A DNA stretch of 42,222 bases from a virus. The DNA is taken from the IMG/VR virus record IMGVR_UViG_3300017527_000118, positions 1-42,222 of that record. The stretch is one strand, 5' to 3'. Numbering within the stretch: position 1 is the stretch's first letter; each line of letters begins with the position of its first letter. The translations under genes were made by a program, and so were the position numbers. Shown here piece by piece: positions 7,776 to 42,222 of the stretch. The notes below the pieces were generated by a model. It was not told the DNA's origin. It did not search any database and was given only the letters and a program-made list of their open reading frames with translations.

Positions 7776-8025
7776 CCTCCCTCCTTCCGCTCACGGCCGC
7801 GACCAGCTCAGCAGTTGACGTGCGCAGGCCAGCGTCATACCCCCTGAGCCAGATCACAGCCTTGTCTACAGTGTCAGCCTCGTAGGCGATGCCGAGGATG
7901 GTCGCTGTGAACCTAAAGACGCCATTGGCATCACTCGCCAGCAGGCCCAGCCTGTCAGCGCACTCAAGCACCTTGGCGCGATCCCAGAACATCACACAGT
8001 CAGTGGGTCTCTCTTCGGCTGGCAT
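7750..8025 (-). CDS. hypothetical protein
   Basis: A 91-residue soluble protein; the N-terminal part contains DRAKVLECADRLGLLASDAN and the C-terminus is highly charged. No family recognised. GGGGGAG lies 6 bases before the ATG at 8025. It overlaps both neighbours (34 bases upstream, 26 downstream), as expected in a packed early operon. Confidence 0.5.
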   Translation of the reverse strand: MPAEERPTDCVMFWDRAKVLECADRLGLLASDANGVFRFTATILGIAYEADTVDKAVIWLRGYDAGLRTSTAELVAAVSGRREDEDTSTAH

Positions 8026-27995: not shown

Positions 27996-28772
27996 CTACA
28001 AATCCTGTATCTCTTCCCGAATGTCCACCATGTCCTCGAACCGAGGGTCGCCCTCGAACTCAGAAGGCTTGTGGAGGTACTCGGGAGCGCACTTGGGGCA
28101 GAGGACCGGCAACAGCATATTGAAGGAGTTGCCGGTATAGCTTGCCGCTGTCCCACTTGTGAATGGGAGATGATCCCAGTTTGGCTTGACGGCATCGTGA
28201 ACGCAGTGGTGGTCGATCCACCAGTCATCAGTGGCGTTGGTCGCGGTGATGTCAACATAGAAGTAGACGGCTGAGCTTGAGGGGGTCACCGCAGCGCTCA
28301 ATGAGGCGACTGGATACGTCACCCAGCACGCACGCATACCAGGGACCGTCCAGGTGCCCAGAGCCTCCTTAGAAACGCCGTCAGACGTGCATACGCCCAG
28401 TACGGCGCTGATCTCCTGGACAGTAGCGGCGTGGTAGGCCCCAACCCACGTCACAAAGAGAAGGTTGGTGTTCCCGCTCAGGTCGGTAGCAACCGTAGAG
28501 CGGTAAGTGCCAGAGGCCCCCGTCCACGTCTGGGAGCCCCTGGCTTCGGTCAGCGTAGTGCCATCAGTGACGTAGGGACGGAATTCGTCAGCGTAGACCC
28601 CCATTGAGACCTCGCCGGCATCCGCCGCGTCACACGTCCAGAAGGCACTGTTGTAGCTCGAGTAGAGCAGTTGGTTGACTCCAGACCGATACCCATACGG
28701 GCGCAGTTTCCTGACGAGAGTCTCTCGTGGGACCTCATCACCACACTCGAAACAGAGTTCGATCTGGGGCAT
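27996..28772 (-). CDS. virion-region protein with flanking Cys pairs
   Basis: A 258-residue protein. An N-terminal CFECGDEVPRETLVRK and a C-terminal VLCPKCAPEYLHKPSEFEGD give two CxxC pairs that could close one zinc site around a beta-rich middle (TWTGASGTYRSTVATDLSGN, then VYFYVDITATNATDDWWIDH). No family recognised. The middle may be a carbohydrate-binding-like sandwich. Position suggests a connector or decoration protein. Confidence 0.55.
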   Translation of the reverse strand: MPQIELCFECGDEVPRETLVRKLRPYGYRSGVNQLLYSSYNSAFWTCDAADAGEVSMGVYADEFRPYVTDGTTLTEARGSQTWTGASGTYRSTVATDLSGNTNLLFVTWVGAYHAATVQEISAVLGVCTSDGVSKEALGTWTVPGMRACWVTYPVASLSAAVTPSSSAVYFYVDITATNATDDWWIDHHCVHDAVKPNWDHLPFTSGTAASYTGNSFNMLLPVLCPKCAPEYLHKPSEFEGDPRFEDMVDIREEIQDL

Positions 28773-28774
28773 TG

Positions 28775-28993
28775 CTAGCCCTTCTTCTTGGTGGTGGCCT
28801 TCTCGCCACCCTCGAGAATCCGAAGAATGCGGTTGAGCTTGGTGGTGAGCCGTGAGAGATCAATCTCTCCAGCCGAGATTGAACCACTAGCCCCACAGTG
28901 CGGACACGGACGAGTTCCGCCGCCGCCAACAGGGTTAATCTTAATCTCTCCAGCGCCTTTGCAGATTCCGCAAGCCTGAGTGATGTCTACCAT
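28775..28993 (-). CDS. small zinc-ribbon protein (DnaJ-type CxxCxGxG)
   Basis: A 72-residue protein with ACGICKGAGEI and CPHCGASGSI, two CxxCxxxG motifs of the DnaJ cysteine-rich kind, and a C-terminal helix, DLSRLTTKLNRILRILEGGE, with a Lys-rich end. One zinc ribbon is likely. I chose the ATG at 28993, only 4 bases after the upstream stop; the frame continues upstream in an unlikely composition. It may be an assembly helper; no evidence for more. Confidence 0.6.
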   Translation of the reverse strand: MVDITQACGICKGAGEIKINPVGGGGTRPCPHCGASGSISAGEIDLSRLTTKLNRILRILEGGEKATTKKKG

Positions 28994-28997
28994 CGTC

Positions 28998-30008
28998 TTA
29001 CTCAGCAGTGTCGATGGTAGTAGCAATGCCCATATTGGCGACGTCACCGGCGTCGGTGTGGGTGTGGCACATGAGCCAAATGTTGGTTTCGTCGGTTCCA
29101 GCCCCCCAATCAGTAGCACCGATAAGAGCGCAGTCCTTGATGATCACATCGCCACCTGCGGATGCGTGAACGTTCATCGCGGAAGTCATGGTCGTGCTGC
29201 CAGCGCCGGTCGGGTTGTAGAAGATGCAGTTGTCGAAGACAACCTCTCGGTCGATGTCACCCGAGCCGTCAATCTTCACGAACAGCACACCGGCATTGTC
29301 AGAGTACACGGTGAAAAAGCAGTCCTTGAACCAGTTGCGGGTGGCCGCGCCGGAAAGTTCAACGTTGGCGTTGGTGGTCGAGCGAGTCACAGTGTTGGCA
29401 CCGAAGTAACACCGCTCGAACATGTTCTCCGAGCCAGTGAGCAGAAGGTCGCAACAGTCCGTTTCGTCACCAGTGTGAGCATTTGGGACACCCACGAAGT
29501 GGACGTTGTAGAAGTAGTTGCGGTTGCCAGAGACATCCACGCCGCGAGCGCCGATGGTATTGGTGTCTGCACCCCAGTGAGCGATCTGGAGGTTCGAGAA
29601 CGTGTTGCCGTGCCCAGTCACCTCAATCACCGGCTCCTCGGTCAGAGCCGCAGTAGCCACCGGAGTGACGCGGCACCGCTGTGACATCGGCACCGGAGCG
29701 CAGGCACCAACAAGGTGCGTGTTGTCGTTGGACCACACCAGCGGAATGGTCGCCTCACGGGATGAGCCCGTGGTGTTGCCATCGTTGAGGTAGTGGATCA
29801 CGTCGCCCTGCTTATCGGTCGTCAGAGCGTAGGCGGCACCAACAGTATCCATCGCGATGTCCTGCTTCTTGCCGCTGTTGTTGTCAGACCCATTAGCAGG
29901 GTCCACGAAGAACACGGTGGCTGAGCCACCCATGATACCCATGCCAAGAGCGCCGCCCCCAACCGGGACGCCGCCGAACTGGAAAACCTGATCACCAAAA
30001 GTCGTCAT
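28998..30008 (-). CDS. right-handed beta-helix virion protein
   Basis: A 336-residue protein. FFVDPANGSDNNSGKKQDIA, then AAYALTTDKQGDVIHYLNDG, is the usual N-terminal cap of pectate-lyase-like beta helices. Repeated strands such as NTFSNLQIAHWG, NYFYNVHFVG, NMFERCYFGANTV and NWFKDCFFTVYSD follow. It lies just after the capsid gene, an uncommon place for a tailspike, so it may decorate the head or form a head fibre. The ATG at 30008 has GGAGAC upstream; an earlier one at 30038 lacks a binding site. Confidence 0.7.
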   Translation of the reverse strand: MTTFGDQVFQFGGVPVGGGALGMGIMGGSATVFFVDPANGSDNNSGKKQDIAMDTVGAAYALTTDKQGDVIHYLNDGNTTGSSREATIPLVWSNDNTHLVGACAPVPMSQRCRVTPVATAALTEEPVIEVTGHGNTFSNLQIAHWGADTNTIGARGVDVSGNRNYFYNVHFVGVPNAHTGDETDCCDLLLTGSENMFERCYFGANTVTRSTTNANVELSGAATRNWFKDCFFTVYSDNAGVLFVKIDGSGDIDREVVFDNCIFYNPTGAGSTTMTSAMNVHASAGGDVIIKDCALIGATDWGAGTDETNIWLMCHTHTDAGDVANMGIATTIDTAE

Positions 30009-39394: not shown

Positions 39395-39814
39395 CTACGC
39401 CTTGTTACGGCAGACGATGACGATCACGCTCGTACATGCCGCCACGTTGTTCTCAGTGACCGAGATCTTGTAAGCACAGAACGGATACGCGATCTCATCC
39501 GGTGGGTCGTACCTCAGCCACGTCGCTGCCGTAGTCTCGTTGGCCTTGACCGCGACTGTGATGTCATTGGTGTCGCTGCCCACCGTCGCCCCTGGCGTGA
39601 GGTCAAAGGTGTTGGTACTCGTCACCGACTTACCCATCGGGTGCAGCCAGTAGATGAAGTTGAGGGAGACGTCGGCCGCCCCCGCACTCTCGAACTTCAA
39701 GGCGAAGTGGTAGTTCTCACCCCCGCGACAAGGGTTCCACGCGCTAGTCTCGGTCGCATTCTGAGCCAAGGCGCCGAAGTCGAAGACATCAGCTCCAGCA
39801 TTCCACTGTCCCAT
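39395..39814 (-). CDS. beta-rich virion-region protein, first late gene
   Basis: A 139-residue protein. Strand-rich pattern: NYHFALKFESAGAADVSLNF, then TNTFDLTPGATVGSDTNDIT and YPFCAYKISVTENN. It resembles a small jelly-roll or fibre cap. No family recognised. GGAAGG precedes the ATG at 39814; frames from 39847 lack a binding site. It lies right after the terminator at 39854-39881. Confidence 0.6.
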   Translation of the reverse strand: MGQWNAGADVFDFGALAQNATETSAWNPCRGGENYHFALKFESAGAADVSLNFIYWLHPMGKSVTSTNTFDLTPGATVGSDTNDITVAVKANETTAATWLRYDPPDEIAYPFCAYKISVTENNVAACTSVIVIVCRNKA

Positions 39815-39853
39815 TACCCACCTTCCTTCCATCCCCACTGGGTTCATATAGCG

Positions 39854-39881
39854 AAAACCCCCGGAACCCTGACTCCGGGGG
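39854..39881 (-). terminator. terminator ahead of the late operon
   Basis: Read leftward: stem CCCCCGGA (39881-39874), 8-base loop, stem TCCGGGGG (39865-39858), then four T (39857-39854). It lies between the late promoter candidate and the first late gene, so it would stop transcripts unless they are antiterminated. The stem is perfect over 8 bp. Confidence 0.8.
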
Positions 39882-39905
39882 CTTTCTCACGTTCGAAAAA
39901 CGCAG

Positions 39906-39951
39906 TTCGGCATCGTGCCGAATTTGGCCGTACCCGGTCGAGGGCCGGGTA
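39906..39951 (-). promoter_or_regulatory. two adjacent hairpins in the late leader
   Basis: First on the leftward transcript: stem TACCCGG/CCGGGTA (39945-39951 with 39931-39937, 7 bp, 7-base loop). Then, 8 bases on, stem TTCGGCA/TGCCGAA (39916-39922 with 39906-39912, 7 bp, 3-base loop). They lie between the promoter candidate and the terminator. A role in antitermination is inferred. Confidence 0.6.
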
Positions 39952-39961
39952 GGAGGGTGTG

Positions 39962-40000
39962 TTGCGTTATGCACCATGTGCGTGTTGCAAAATGCACCAT
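39962..40000. repeat. direct repeats TTGCnnnATGCACCAT, 23 bp apart
   Basis: ATGCACCAT occurs at 39969-39977 and 39992-40000, each preceded by TTGC plus three variable bases. Spacing is 23 bases, about two helical turns. They lie just downstream of the leftward -10 candidate, a place where a protein could block or aid transcription. The same TTATGCACC core recurs once at about 30133-30143. Confidence 0.7.
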
Positions 40001-40009
40001 CACACACAA

Positions 40010-40054
40010 TGTATACCACAAGCTGGGCAAATGCCACAGCTAATGAATTTAGCT
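40010..40054 (-). promoter_or_regulatory. candidate late promoter (extended -10) with upstream inverted repeat
   Basis: Read leftward: TGG then TATACA (40018-40010), an extended -10 (TGnTATACA). The -35 position (40038-40033, TGTGGC) is far from consensus, which fits a promoter that needs an activator. AGCTAA and TTAGCT (40038-40043, 40049-40054) form an inverted repeat touching the -35, a possible activator or repressor site. Confidence 0.55.
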
Positions 40055-40061
40055 AGACTAC

Positions 40062-40451
40062 TTAAATCCGCGCGCGCGAGCGTCGCGCGTGAGAGGCTGG
40101 ACTGTGGGGAAAAATGCAGGCAGTGTCCGGGGAGCTGGTCATTCGGAGTTCTCTCAGTCGGGCGTCGGATGTTCTCAGCAATCGGGTACTCGGGTCTTCA
40201 CCGTCAGCGACTCGGGTAGTAGCAGTTCCCCCAGCCATTAAGGTCGGCCAGAAAACCTTGCATCCACCTTGGATTAACTGTCCAGTGGCAACGGGCCGGC
40301 AAAACCCTGAAGATAGCCCCCAGAGTTCTGACGGCCCGTCGCCGTGGTGTGTATTCACAGTCGTGCAACGAAGAAACCAGTCCCTTCTAACCGGATTACG
40401 CGCCGGTTGCCCCGCGTCACCCCGCGCCCACTGCCTGCTGTCTCTTGTCAC
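40062..40451 (-). CDS. possible 129-residue protein (GTG start), weak
   Basis: An open frame begins with GTG at 40451, directly after the preceding stop, with GGAAG seven bases upstream. The product is Arg/Pro/Ser-rich (SRQWARGDAGQPARNPVRRD) with no recognisable domain and an odd basic end (HARRSRARI). Open frames also exist on the other strand here, so the region may be non-coding. The bases 40291-40298 and 40332-40339 form an 8-bp inverted repeat (ACGGGCCG/CGGCCCGT). Confidence 0.25.
   Translation of the reverse strand: MTRDSRQWARGDAGQPARNPVRRDWFLRCTTVNTHHGDGPSELWGLSSGFCRPVATGQLIQGGCKVFWPTLMAGGTATTRVADGEDPSTRLLRTSDARLRELRMTSSPDTACIFPHSPASHARRSRARI
40291..40339. other. 8-bp inverted repeat with 33-base loop in otherwise unassigned DNA
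   Basis: ACGGGCCG (40291-40298) pairs with CGGCCCGT (40332-40339). No T run follows closely. It lies inside the 40062-40451 stretch for which I see no convincing gene, and could be a structured RNA or a protein site. Confidence 0.4.
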
Positions 40452-40796
40452 CTAGTCACTTCCGTAGTCGAACCTGTCGTCCTTGACACCGGAGGCATCC
40501 TCGGCAAACTCAGCCATCACCGACTCCTGGACCTCGATGGTGGTCTCCCAGTTCGCCCGCTGGATCGCAGCATCGACCAAGCGCAACTGCCGTGCGTGCC
40601 AGTCATACGCAGCCTTCAACTGCCCAATCGTCACAATTGGAACCTCAGCCTTGATGTCATCGAGGTTGTCAGTCACGTTGACCCTGCGAACAACCGCACG
40701 GATCAGATCGTGATCCTTGATCGGCCGTAGCTGGTCAACCTTCTGCTGCAACTCCTTGCGCCGCAGCAACGCCTCTGCCAACTGTACCTTCTTCAT
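40452..40796 (-). CDS. helical protein, DIP1984/DUF6847-like
   Basis: A 114-residue protein. KKVQLAEALLRRKELQQKVD then QLRPIKDHDLIRA, and LRLVDAAIQRANWETTI, match the two-helix pattern LAEALxxRxxLQxKxxQL...LxxxIxxxN of a small family I know as DIP1984 or DUF6847, of unknown role. The ATG at 40796 has GGGAGGAG upstream; a longer frame begins at 40853 without a binding site. Confidence 0.55.
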   Translation of the reverse strand: MKKVQLAEALLRRKELQQKVDQLRPIKDHDLIRAVVRRVNVTDNLDDIKAEVPIVTIGQLKAAYDWHARQLRLVDAAIQRANWETTIEVQESVMAEFAEDASGVKDDRFDYGSD

Positions 40797-41655: not shown

Positions 41656-41996
41656 CTACCTCCCTAGAAGCGCCCTCACTATCCATCCGATGACCTCCGC
41701 GCACTGAGGGACGACGGCGTTGCCGAGGGCTCGCTGGTGGTCCATTCGTCTGGGAAACCCATGTACCACTGCATCCACCGCGGGGAGAGCGGTCCACCCA
41801 GAATGGAGCTGAGGCTTTGTCGTTTCGTTCCCACTCTCCCACCTGCGCCGCCTTGATTGCTTCCGTATGTCGATGCCGTCAGCGTTGGCAGCAGGTTCCG
41901 CCACATCTCCCGTGATCCGTGAGAGTCTGGGAGTCCCCAGCGGTTTGCTCGCAAGGTGGGCAACGACGAAAACACGGGCTCGATCGTGTGGAGCTC
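41656..41996 (-). pseudogene. C-terminal half of a C5-cytosine DNA methyltransferase, frameshifted
   Basis: Read leftward, PHDRARVFVVA (motif VIII region) is in one frame, then LPTLRANRWGLPDSHGS, TASTYGSNQGGAGGRVG and GGPLSPRWMQWYMGFPDEWT are in a second frame (41679-41975), and finally HQRALGNAVVPQCAEVIGWI (motif X region) is back in the first frame. The order of blocks is that of phage C5 methyltransferases, but two compensating one-base shifts are needed. Motifs I to VI are missing on this strand. The gene is therefore broken, or the sequence has errors here. Confidence 0.75.
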
Positions 41997-42222
41997 TGAC
42001 AGCTTTTGCCGACACAGGGCTCGGACCAGTCGTGTGGCAAATCGAAAGCGACGAGTTCTGCCGGCGAGTGCTCGCGAAGCACTGGCCCGATGCAGACCGG
42101 AGCGTGACCGATGTCAGACGAGCCACCGCAGCAAACCTCACTCCCGTTGACCTGGTCTGCGGAGGGTTCCCCTGCCAGGACGTGTCCAGCGCAGGAGCGG
42201 GCGCGGGCCTTACTGGAAGCCG
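41987..42222 (+). pseudogene. N-terminal piece of a C5-cytosine DNA methyltransferase, opposite strand, runs off the window
   Basis: Read rightward: ALTAFADTGLGPVVWQIESD, then EFCRRVLAKHWPDAERSV and LVCGGFPCQDVSSAGAGAGL. FPCQ is motif IV with the catalytic Cys. The motif I block (FxGxG) that should precede is missing, because the similarity starts at the junction near 41991. The piece points away from the C-terminal half and ends at the window edge, so what follows is not known. Confidence 0.75.

Follow-up and report, generated by a model that had tools for sequence, protein, structure and literature searches.

The DNA analysed here, referred to below as the window, is the whole stretch of 42,222 nt of the IMG/VR virus record IMGVR_UViG_3300017527_000118. 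The contig lacks a terminal repeat, is probably incomplete, and ends on the right in a truncated DNA methyltransferase (phrog_32758, phrog_363; 41656-42222, minus strand). A noncoding gap of 604 nt (39848-40451) separates a gene for a DUF6847 protein from the late genes. This gap is far longer than the region (39850-40060) that an earlier sequence-only reading had described as a late-gene control region, and a structured RNA of about 330 nt at 40438-40110 (minus strand) had been overlooked. ORFs across 40062-40455 on both strands were rejected as coding, with a codon score of -0.21 vs +0.08 to +0.33 for genes. On the side of the late genes, the gap contained the following features:

40073-40089, minus strand: hairpin CGCGCGA-CGC-TCGCGCG, between the structured RNA and the promoter (hairpin search)
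40038-40054, minus strand: operator-like inverted repeat AGCTAA-attca-TTAGCT (sequence)
40009-40018, minus strand: weak extended -10 (TGGTATACAT) of a putative late promoter (inspection)
39959-40000, minus strand: two direct repeats ATGGTGCATNNNGCAACAC, 23 bp apart, at about +1 to +45 (repeat search and shuffles)
39931-39951, minus strand: leader hairpin HP1 (fold and hairpin search)
39906-39922, minus strand: leader hairpin HP2, then CTGCGTTTTT (terminator scan and hairpin search)
39853-39886, minus strand: leader hairpin HP3, terminator-like (hairpin search)

The inverted repeat (40054-40038) is present as had been reported, but it could be placed either at the -35, as claimed, or just upstream of it. 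The extended -10 (TGnTATACA, 40018-40010) was also recovered, yet the promoter is weaker than had been stated: the -10 is missing its final T, the -35 matches at 4/6 positions at best with a spacer of 16 bp, and the putative promoter was absent from the list given by the consensus promoter scan. The two direct repeats 23 bp apart proved longer than described, with ATGGTGCATNNNGCAACAC occurring at 40000-39982 and again at 39977-39959. Two such matches arose in 2 of 100 shuffles, and the pair is the only one of its kind in the window, the hexanucleotide tract at 2075-2190 excepted. That tract consists of AACCGT/AACCGG/CACCGT repeats within ORF 2056-2391. Both 7-bp hairpins were confirmed, namely HP1 (TACCCGG-7-CCGGGTA, 39951-39931) and HP2 (TTCGGCA-CGA-TGCCGAA, 39922-39906), the latter followed by the T-run of CTGCGTTTTT and itself scored as terminator-like. 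As for the strong terminator previously placed before the first late gene, the hairpin HP3 (39886-39853) exists, with a 14-bp stem and -23.9 kcal/mol, but its U-run comprises only four U, which are paired within the stem. Four of the 13 perfect 7-bp hairpins of the window fall within 40089-39859 (binomial P 6e-7), the leader fold is stronger than that of shuffles (z -2.9), and 39841-40000 (minus strand) ranked sixth among 1052 windows in an excess-folding scan of the contig. Translation of the first late gene most likely starts at 39814, with the SD sequence GGAAGGAAGG, and the late genes downstream of the leader, as claimed earlier, encode a terminase (phrog_38), a head-tail connector (phrog_332), a capsid homologue, and an amidase.

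It is plausible that 40054-39853 represents an attenuated late leader, i.e., a separate promoter-leader-terminator that would probably attenuate late transcription until a phage factor relieves the attenuation. The leader, for which such an attenuated promoter is the simplest reading, is an element distinct from the conserved RNA lying directly upstream in the same gap. A repressor-controlled or Q-type attenuated promoter, in which a protein would act on the inverted repeat or the 23-bp repeats and HP1-HP3 would be ordinary terminators, is a serious candidate that falls somewhat short of an even chance. The direct repeats, which span the start site at a spacing of about two helical turns, resemble protein sites, as does the inverted repeat near the -35, whereas the promoter is weak by consensus and the scanned proteins of the window (PHROGs), many of which match no family, included neither a recognisable Q homologue nor any other Q-/N-like antiterminator. 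The earlier suggestion that the two hairpins within 39850-40060 act on RNA polymerase, like the put sites of HK022, and allow it to pass HP3 appears distinctly unlikely. The promoter-like site, the hairpin cluster, and the terminator do stand in the right order ahead of about 29 kb of late genes, but the presence of two hairpins is the one put-like trait that was recovered, the put sequence differs, as conceded when the idea was raised, HP2 with its own T-run may be a terminator, and the leader has no relative that could be compared. Searches for such relatives in phage records and IMG/VR via DNA, repeat pattern, terminase, portal, capsid, and the 2286-aa protein found none: blastn of the gap against phage records gave no match, and only loci that were 22-31% identical or unrelated came back when the query was the repeat pattern, a Walker-A DNA pattern, or one of four proteins, namely the terminase (as one sequence and as an alignment), the portal, the capsid, and the 2286-aa protein. 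The likeness to the HK022 put RNA and to lambda Q-type late leaders, a comparison that covers 40054-39853 alone, consists of a promoter and a short leader with hairpins or a terminator with the late operon downstream; the difference is that no sequence relation was shown and no Q was found.

The closest capsid relative of the window, ct2G2228 (locus L097, MW202785.1), showed no similar structured RNA. Near the start of its leftward operon, 29242-29790 (minus strand) carries an RfaH-like annotation; the encoded protein has an NGN-KOW (NusG) look by eye, yet no Pfam NusG match, and could be a late antiterminator.

The remainder of the gap and the gene flanking it harbored the following features:

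40452-40796, minus strand: DUF6847 (PF20935) gene encoding 114 aa, adjoining the RNA on its 5' side and proposed to supply its protein partner (Pfam 3.9e-7, codon score)
40110-40438, minus strand: structured noncoding RNA, from the closing stem P1 to the U-run, with inferred 5' and 3' ends (codon score, fold, homology)
40429-40438, minus strand: P1 5' strand GCAGGCAGTG (cognate-arm pairing across 56 loci)
40398-40417, minus strand: pseudoknot helix S1 ACGCG/CGCGT, 40417-40413 with 40402-40398 (S1 equivalent covaries)
40389-40408, minus strand: pseudoknot helix S2 AACCGG/CCGGTT, 40408-40403 with 40394-40389 (left out of the model, yet covaries)
40370-40387, minus strand: hairpin P3 GAAGGGA-CUGG-UUUCUUC, then GUUGC (descriptor, tetraloop covariation)
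40287-40343, minus strand: long window-specific hairpin in the variable middle domain (surrounding 160-nt fold window ranks 1 of 1052)
40270-40284, minus strand: UGGACAGUUAAUCCA, resembling the anticodon arm of tRNA-Asn (GUU), possible remnant of a tRNA-like domain (inspection only)
40132-40199, minus strand: CCGA-repeat domain (CCGAUUGcUGAGAACAUCCGACGCCCGACUGAGAGAACUCCGAAUGACCAGCUC) (model R2)
40116-40125, minus strand: P1 3' strand CACTGCCTGC (pairing with GCAGGCAGTG)
40110-40115, minus strand: ATTTTT following P1, probably an intrinsic terminator that sets the 3' end (U-run count across loci)

In the excess-folding scan, which was regression-corrected and covered the whole contig, 40241-40400 (minus strand) ranked first of the 1052 windows, and the fold of 40445-40106 had a z of -4.2. 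The P1 arms form a perfect 10-bp pair followed by ATTTTT, a pairing that is not significant in the window alone (38 of 300 shuffled arm pairs were equally good). The pseudoknot reads ACGCG-gggc-AACCGG-CGCGT-aat-CCGGTT, and the loop of P3, CUGG, is self-complementary via two G-U pairs; a descriptor combining S1/S2, P3, and UNGC gave the window a score of 49.4, which none of 1000 shuffles reached. The covariance model R2, built from a seed without the window, matched 40199-40132 as its sole match in the window (48.7 bits, E 2.4e-14, covariance-model E-values being rough). The narrow model R1 misses the diverged 5' domain of the window, and its match at 7898-7924 (E 0.23) was set aside as chance. 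Elsewhere on the contig, excess folding was second strongest at 28721-28880, on either strand, in a stretch surrounding a gene boundary (28772-28775) and a 7-bp hairpin (28861-28881).

The DUF6847 protein of the window shared 42-64% identity with 38 homologues, in which LLRRKEL and IQ..NW were invariant; these motifs are compatible with RNA binding without proving it. Its AlphaFold model (pLDDT 73) showed two long helices and a beta hairpin, and a structure search with the model revealed no confident fold match. In the PDB, the sequence closest to the DUF6847 profile was 3kdq, a conserved Corynebacterium diphtheriae protein with no known function, over residues 48-85; this match is weak (E 0.0024) and was not confirmed by the structure search (E 1.7). 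In Vibrio phages with DUF6847 relatives (45% identity), a noncoding gap of 300-370 nt follows the gene as well, and it shares CCGACT...AG.A.TCCGAATGACCAGC with the gap of the window.

A total of 80 IMG/VR loci were retrieved with an alignment of DUF6847 proteins, and the RNA (R1 or R2 match) was detected in 78 of them, always on the strand of the gene, with L108 and L166 lacking a clear RNA match. The R2 matches mostly started 100-700 nt past the stop codon (70 of 75), the median distance from the stop to the CCGA domain being 263 nt, and the RNA lay 0.9-1.25 kb downstream of the DUF6847 gene in L113, L115, and L141. In the controls, 55 terminase-selected phage loci comprising 701 kb, R2 matched nowhere and R1 once, by chance. 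The CCGA domain was located upstream of the DUF6847 gene in L158 (2904-2970) and L183 (2264-2331), indicating that the linkage is independent of order. Between the window and the DUF6847 loci, whose phages are otherwise unrelated to that of the window, no gene sharing was found beyond the DUF6847 gene itself, one Holliday-junction resolvase, and weak matches, and no late gene was common to them, so that the DUF6847 gene and the RNA travel together. Where neighbours at the DUF6847 loci could be recognised, replication genes predominated (clamp loader, polymerase, primase, SSB, and resolvase). Only four loci were found in bacterial genomes, including Legionella maceachernii and a Desulfosporosinus MAG, and cultured Vibrio phages, such as 1.264.O and PS32B.1, have the RNA as well. 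Two small genes come after the RNA in Vibrio phages (L101, 4677-5236; L102, 4603-5162); the annotations given to them in 1.264.O are sigma-70 region 2 and sigma factor region 3/4.

Across loci, the RNA showed a common anatomy of about 260-460 nt, composed of P1, an H-type pseudoknot, P3, a variable middle, a CCGA-repeat domain, and often a U-run. The P1 arms pair within each phage while their sequences are wholly different between phages, and cognate arms paired far better than non-cognate arms over 56 loci (p 4e-22). At least five T within the 8 nt after P1 were found in 23 of the 56 loci vs a background of 4.2%, suggesting that P1 and the U-run probably end the transcript. Counting from the 5' arm of P1, the H-type pseudoknot (e.g., AAGGC-cgc-TAGGA-GCCTT-aa-TCCTA) comes first, followed by P3 and then UNGC. 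The 3' CCGA domain is conserved in sequence; four loci (L172, L176, L180, and L185) carry a lineage-specific insertion within it (e.g., CCCCGCAGTGACGACACAGGGG).

Covariation was analysed in an alignment (A9) whose members were collected and aligned by a covariance model holding S1 and P3 only. Overall, 97.6% of the cells were paired, and the covariation was 0.579 compared with 0.133 in shuffled and 0.04-0.10 in slid alignments, although these counts favour S1 and P3, which are in the model, and not S2 or the tetraloop. S2, outside the model, was paired in 100% of the cells, and all four of its pairs change on both sides. The P3 tetraloop was self-complementary by Watson-Crick pairing in 23 of 31 distinct hairpins and in 30 of 31 with G-U allowed, a result reached in 0 of 2000 column shuffles; the loop bases were mostly GGCC, GCGC, UGCA, GUAC, UCGA, ACGU, or CCGG, and two loop positions covaried with 98.6% paired. 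Since adjacent bases cannot pair within one chain, the self-complementarity points to a contact between two copies of the RNA. The tetraloop covariation, a pattern read from aligned sequences, can be regarded as the signature of a homodimeric kissing loop, and copies of the RNA probably pair.

In addition, the middle domain, between P3 and the 3' domain, contained a complete tRNA recognised by ARAGORN in at least 27 loci (about 30). These tRNAs have more than ten anticodons, covering Ile, Gln, Asn, Lys, Thr, Arg, Ser, His, and a stop-codon type. In approximately 18 loci, motif order and inspection place the T arm ahead of the D arm, as in a circularly permuted tRNA attached via its anticodon arm. 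An embedded or permuted tRNA is frequent in the class rather than universal, and the window is without one: ARAGORN recognised no tRNA in its RNA, and no permuted tRNA was recognised there either. We infer that the tRNA domain is reduced in the window phage. Separate tRNA genes lie directly downstream of the RNA in L109 (3652-3726), L140 (3619-3693), and L160 (3661-3731), recalling the tRNA islands of GOLLD/ROOL. ARAGORN also called a tRNA-Val (CAC) at 28154-28232 (minus strand) of the window, inside the same-strand ORF 27996-28772; both can hardly be right.

Taken together, 40438-40110 very probably belongs to a new class of structured phage noncoding RNA with the fold given above, shared by descent, its newness being that neither Rfam 15 nor the open-licence literature searched contains it. 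The RNA would be made as its own transcript ending at P1 plus the U-run, and its copies would associate through the palindromic P3 loop. Gene linkage makes the DUF6847 protein a candidate partner that on balance we expect to bind the RNA. In an infected cell, the RNA-DUF6847 complex may carry or mimic tRNA: it would present a phage tRNA, or a bait with the shape of one, to the host factors that handle tRNA, or else keep it from them. The connection of the tRNA to the body would differ between phages, being made via the acceptor stem or, in circularly permuted form, via the anticodon arm. A tRNA-bearing role of the RNA is put forward tentatively, as the less probable side of the question. The fuller proposal is a new phage RNA-protein particle in which copies of the RNA associate via the P3 loop and DUF6847 is the bound protein; by exposing or sheltering a tRNA or its mimic, the particle would supply, protect, or counterfeit tRNA in infection. 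This proposal has an appreciable chance, if still below an even one.

The location of the RNA also invites the explanation that the structure is a cis-acting 3' UTR of the DUF6847 mRNA, in which binding of the protein or a ligand would tune the gene's own message and no free RNA would exist. The RNA is always on the strand of the gene and usually directly after its stop, and the U-run after P1 suits an mRNA end. However, P1, the pseudoknot, the embedded tRNAs, and a length of about 260-460 nt exceed what is usual for autoregulatory UTRs, the RNA is upstream of the gene in L158 and L183, and an embedded tRNA would be excised from the mRNA, all of which make this explanation unlikely.

Even less likely is an origin of the RNA by divergence within one of the known ornate families (GOLLD, ROOL) or among the Y RNAs (YrlA). 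GOLLD is likewise phage-encoded, with a tRNA in a variable linker and a palindromic loop (PMC12286853), and two loci gave sub-threshold YrlA matches. Nevertheless, Rfam 15 gave no match other than tRNA, with YrlA and tmRNA falling below threshold. GOLLD/ROOL models remained unmatched even at permissive thresholds (none at E<=1 in the window, at <=0.5 in 11 loci, or at <=1 in two Vibrio phage loci), and 260-460 nt is below the size of GOLLD, many members of which exceed 800 nt. Matches to the YrlA model were restricted to L116 and L133, at 32.9 and 29.7 bits vs a gathering score of 69. ARAGORN found no tmRNA in the window or 24 loci, and the ends of the RNA form P1 and no acceptor stem. The Rfam matches to mir-4872 and ST7-OT4_3 in the window (E ~0.4) were dismissed as chance, and a group I intron or RNase P RNA, considered from size alone, had no Rfam match. 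The open-licence literature searched contained no description of the RNA class. Finally, that the palindromes and stems are DNA elements (an origin, or a resolution or integration site) is extremely improbable: P3 reads in many cases as a perfect 16-bp palindrome, tRNA genes such as the embedded ones can act as attachment sites, and replication-gene neighbours are frequent, but the compensatory changes on both pseudoknot helices, the G-U wobbles, the fixed strand relative to the gene, and the U-run after P1 speak for an RNA.

The new class adds to a short list, large structured phage RNAs being few, with GOLLD and ROOL the known examples, and their functions being unknown. The DUF6847-linked RNA is small enough for ordinary biochemistry, and almost all of the retrieved loci supply a candidate protein partner; its dimerisation signal is readable from covariation, and it carries tRNAs in native and apparently permuted connectivity. 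As cultured Vibrio phages carry it, its expression, binding, and oligomerisation are open to experiment. The RNA may bear on how phages manage tRNA, for example against host defences that destroy tRNA.

Among the known systems, YrlA and other Y RNAs resemble the DUF6847-linked RNA in having a tRNA-like module; their partner is the Ro protein, and YrlA is without the pseudoknot, P1, and CCGA domain. ROOL is larger than the DUF6847-linked RNA, and we know of no protein partner for it. ROOL is a phage/prophage RNA that lies close to tRNA islands and contains pseudoknots as well as quaternary kissing loops (PMC12286853), features that constitute the likeness, whereas no Rfam match was obtained here. 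OLE differs in being bacterial rather than phage-linked and in its other structure, with no match to the present RNA. It is an RNA dimer whose palindromic loop L9.3 switches among GGCC, GAUC, and AGCU (PMC12286853); this switching resembles that of the P3 loop and provides the same argument for pairing between copies. GOLLD is distinguished by the size of many of its members, by its other sequence and structure, by the lack of an Rfam match here, and by the fact that no DUF6847 partner is named in the passages of PMC12286853 consulted. The rating as a new class was adopted because GOLLD, ROOL, and OLE resembled the RNA in style but none matched it. In that style GOLLD, a phage/prophage RNA of unknown function with tRNAs sometimes in its linker, shares with the DUF6847-linked RNA the phage origin, the tRNA in the linker, and the covariation of a palindromic loop, which in L21a of GOLLD reports a homo-oligomer contact (PMC12286853).
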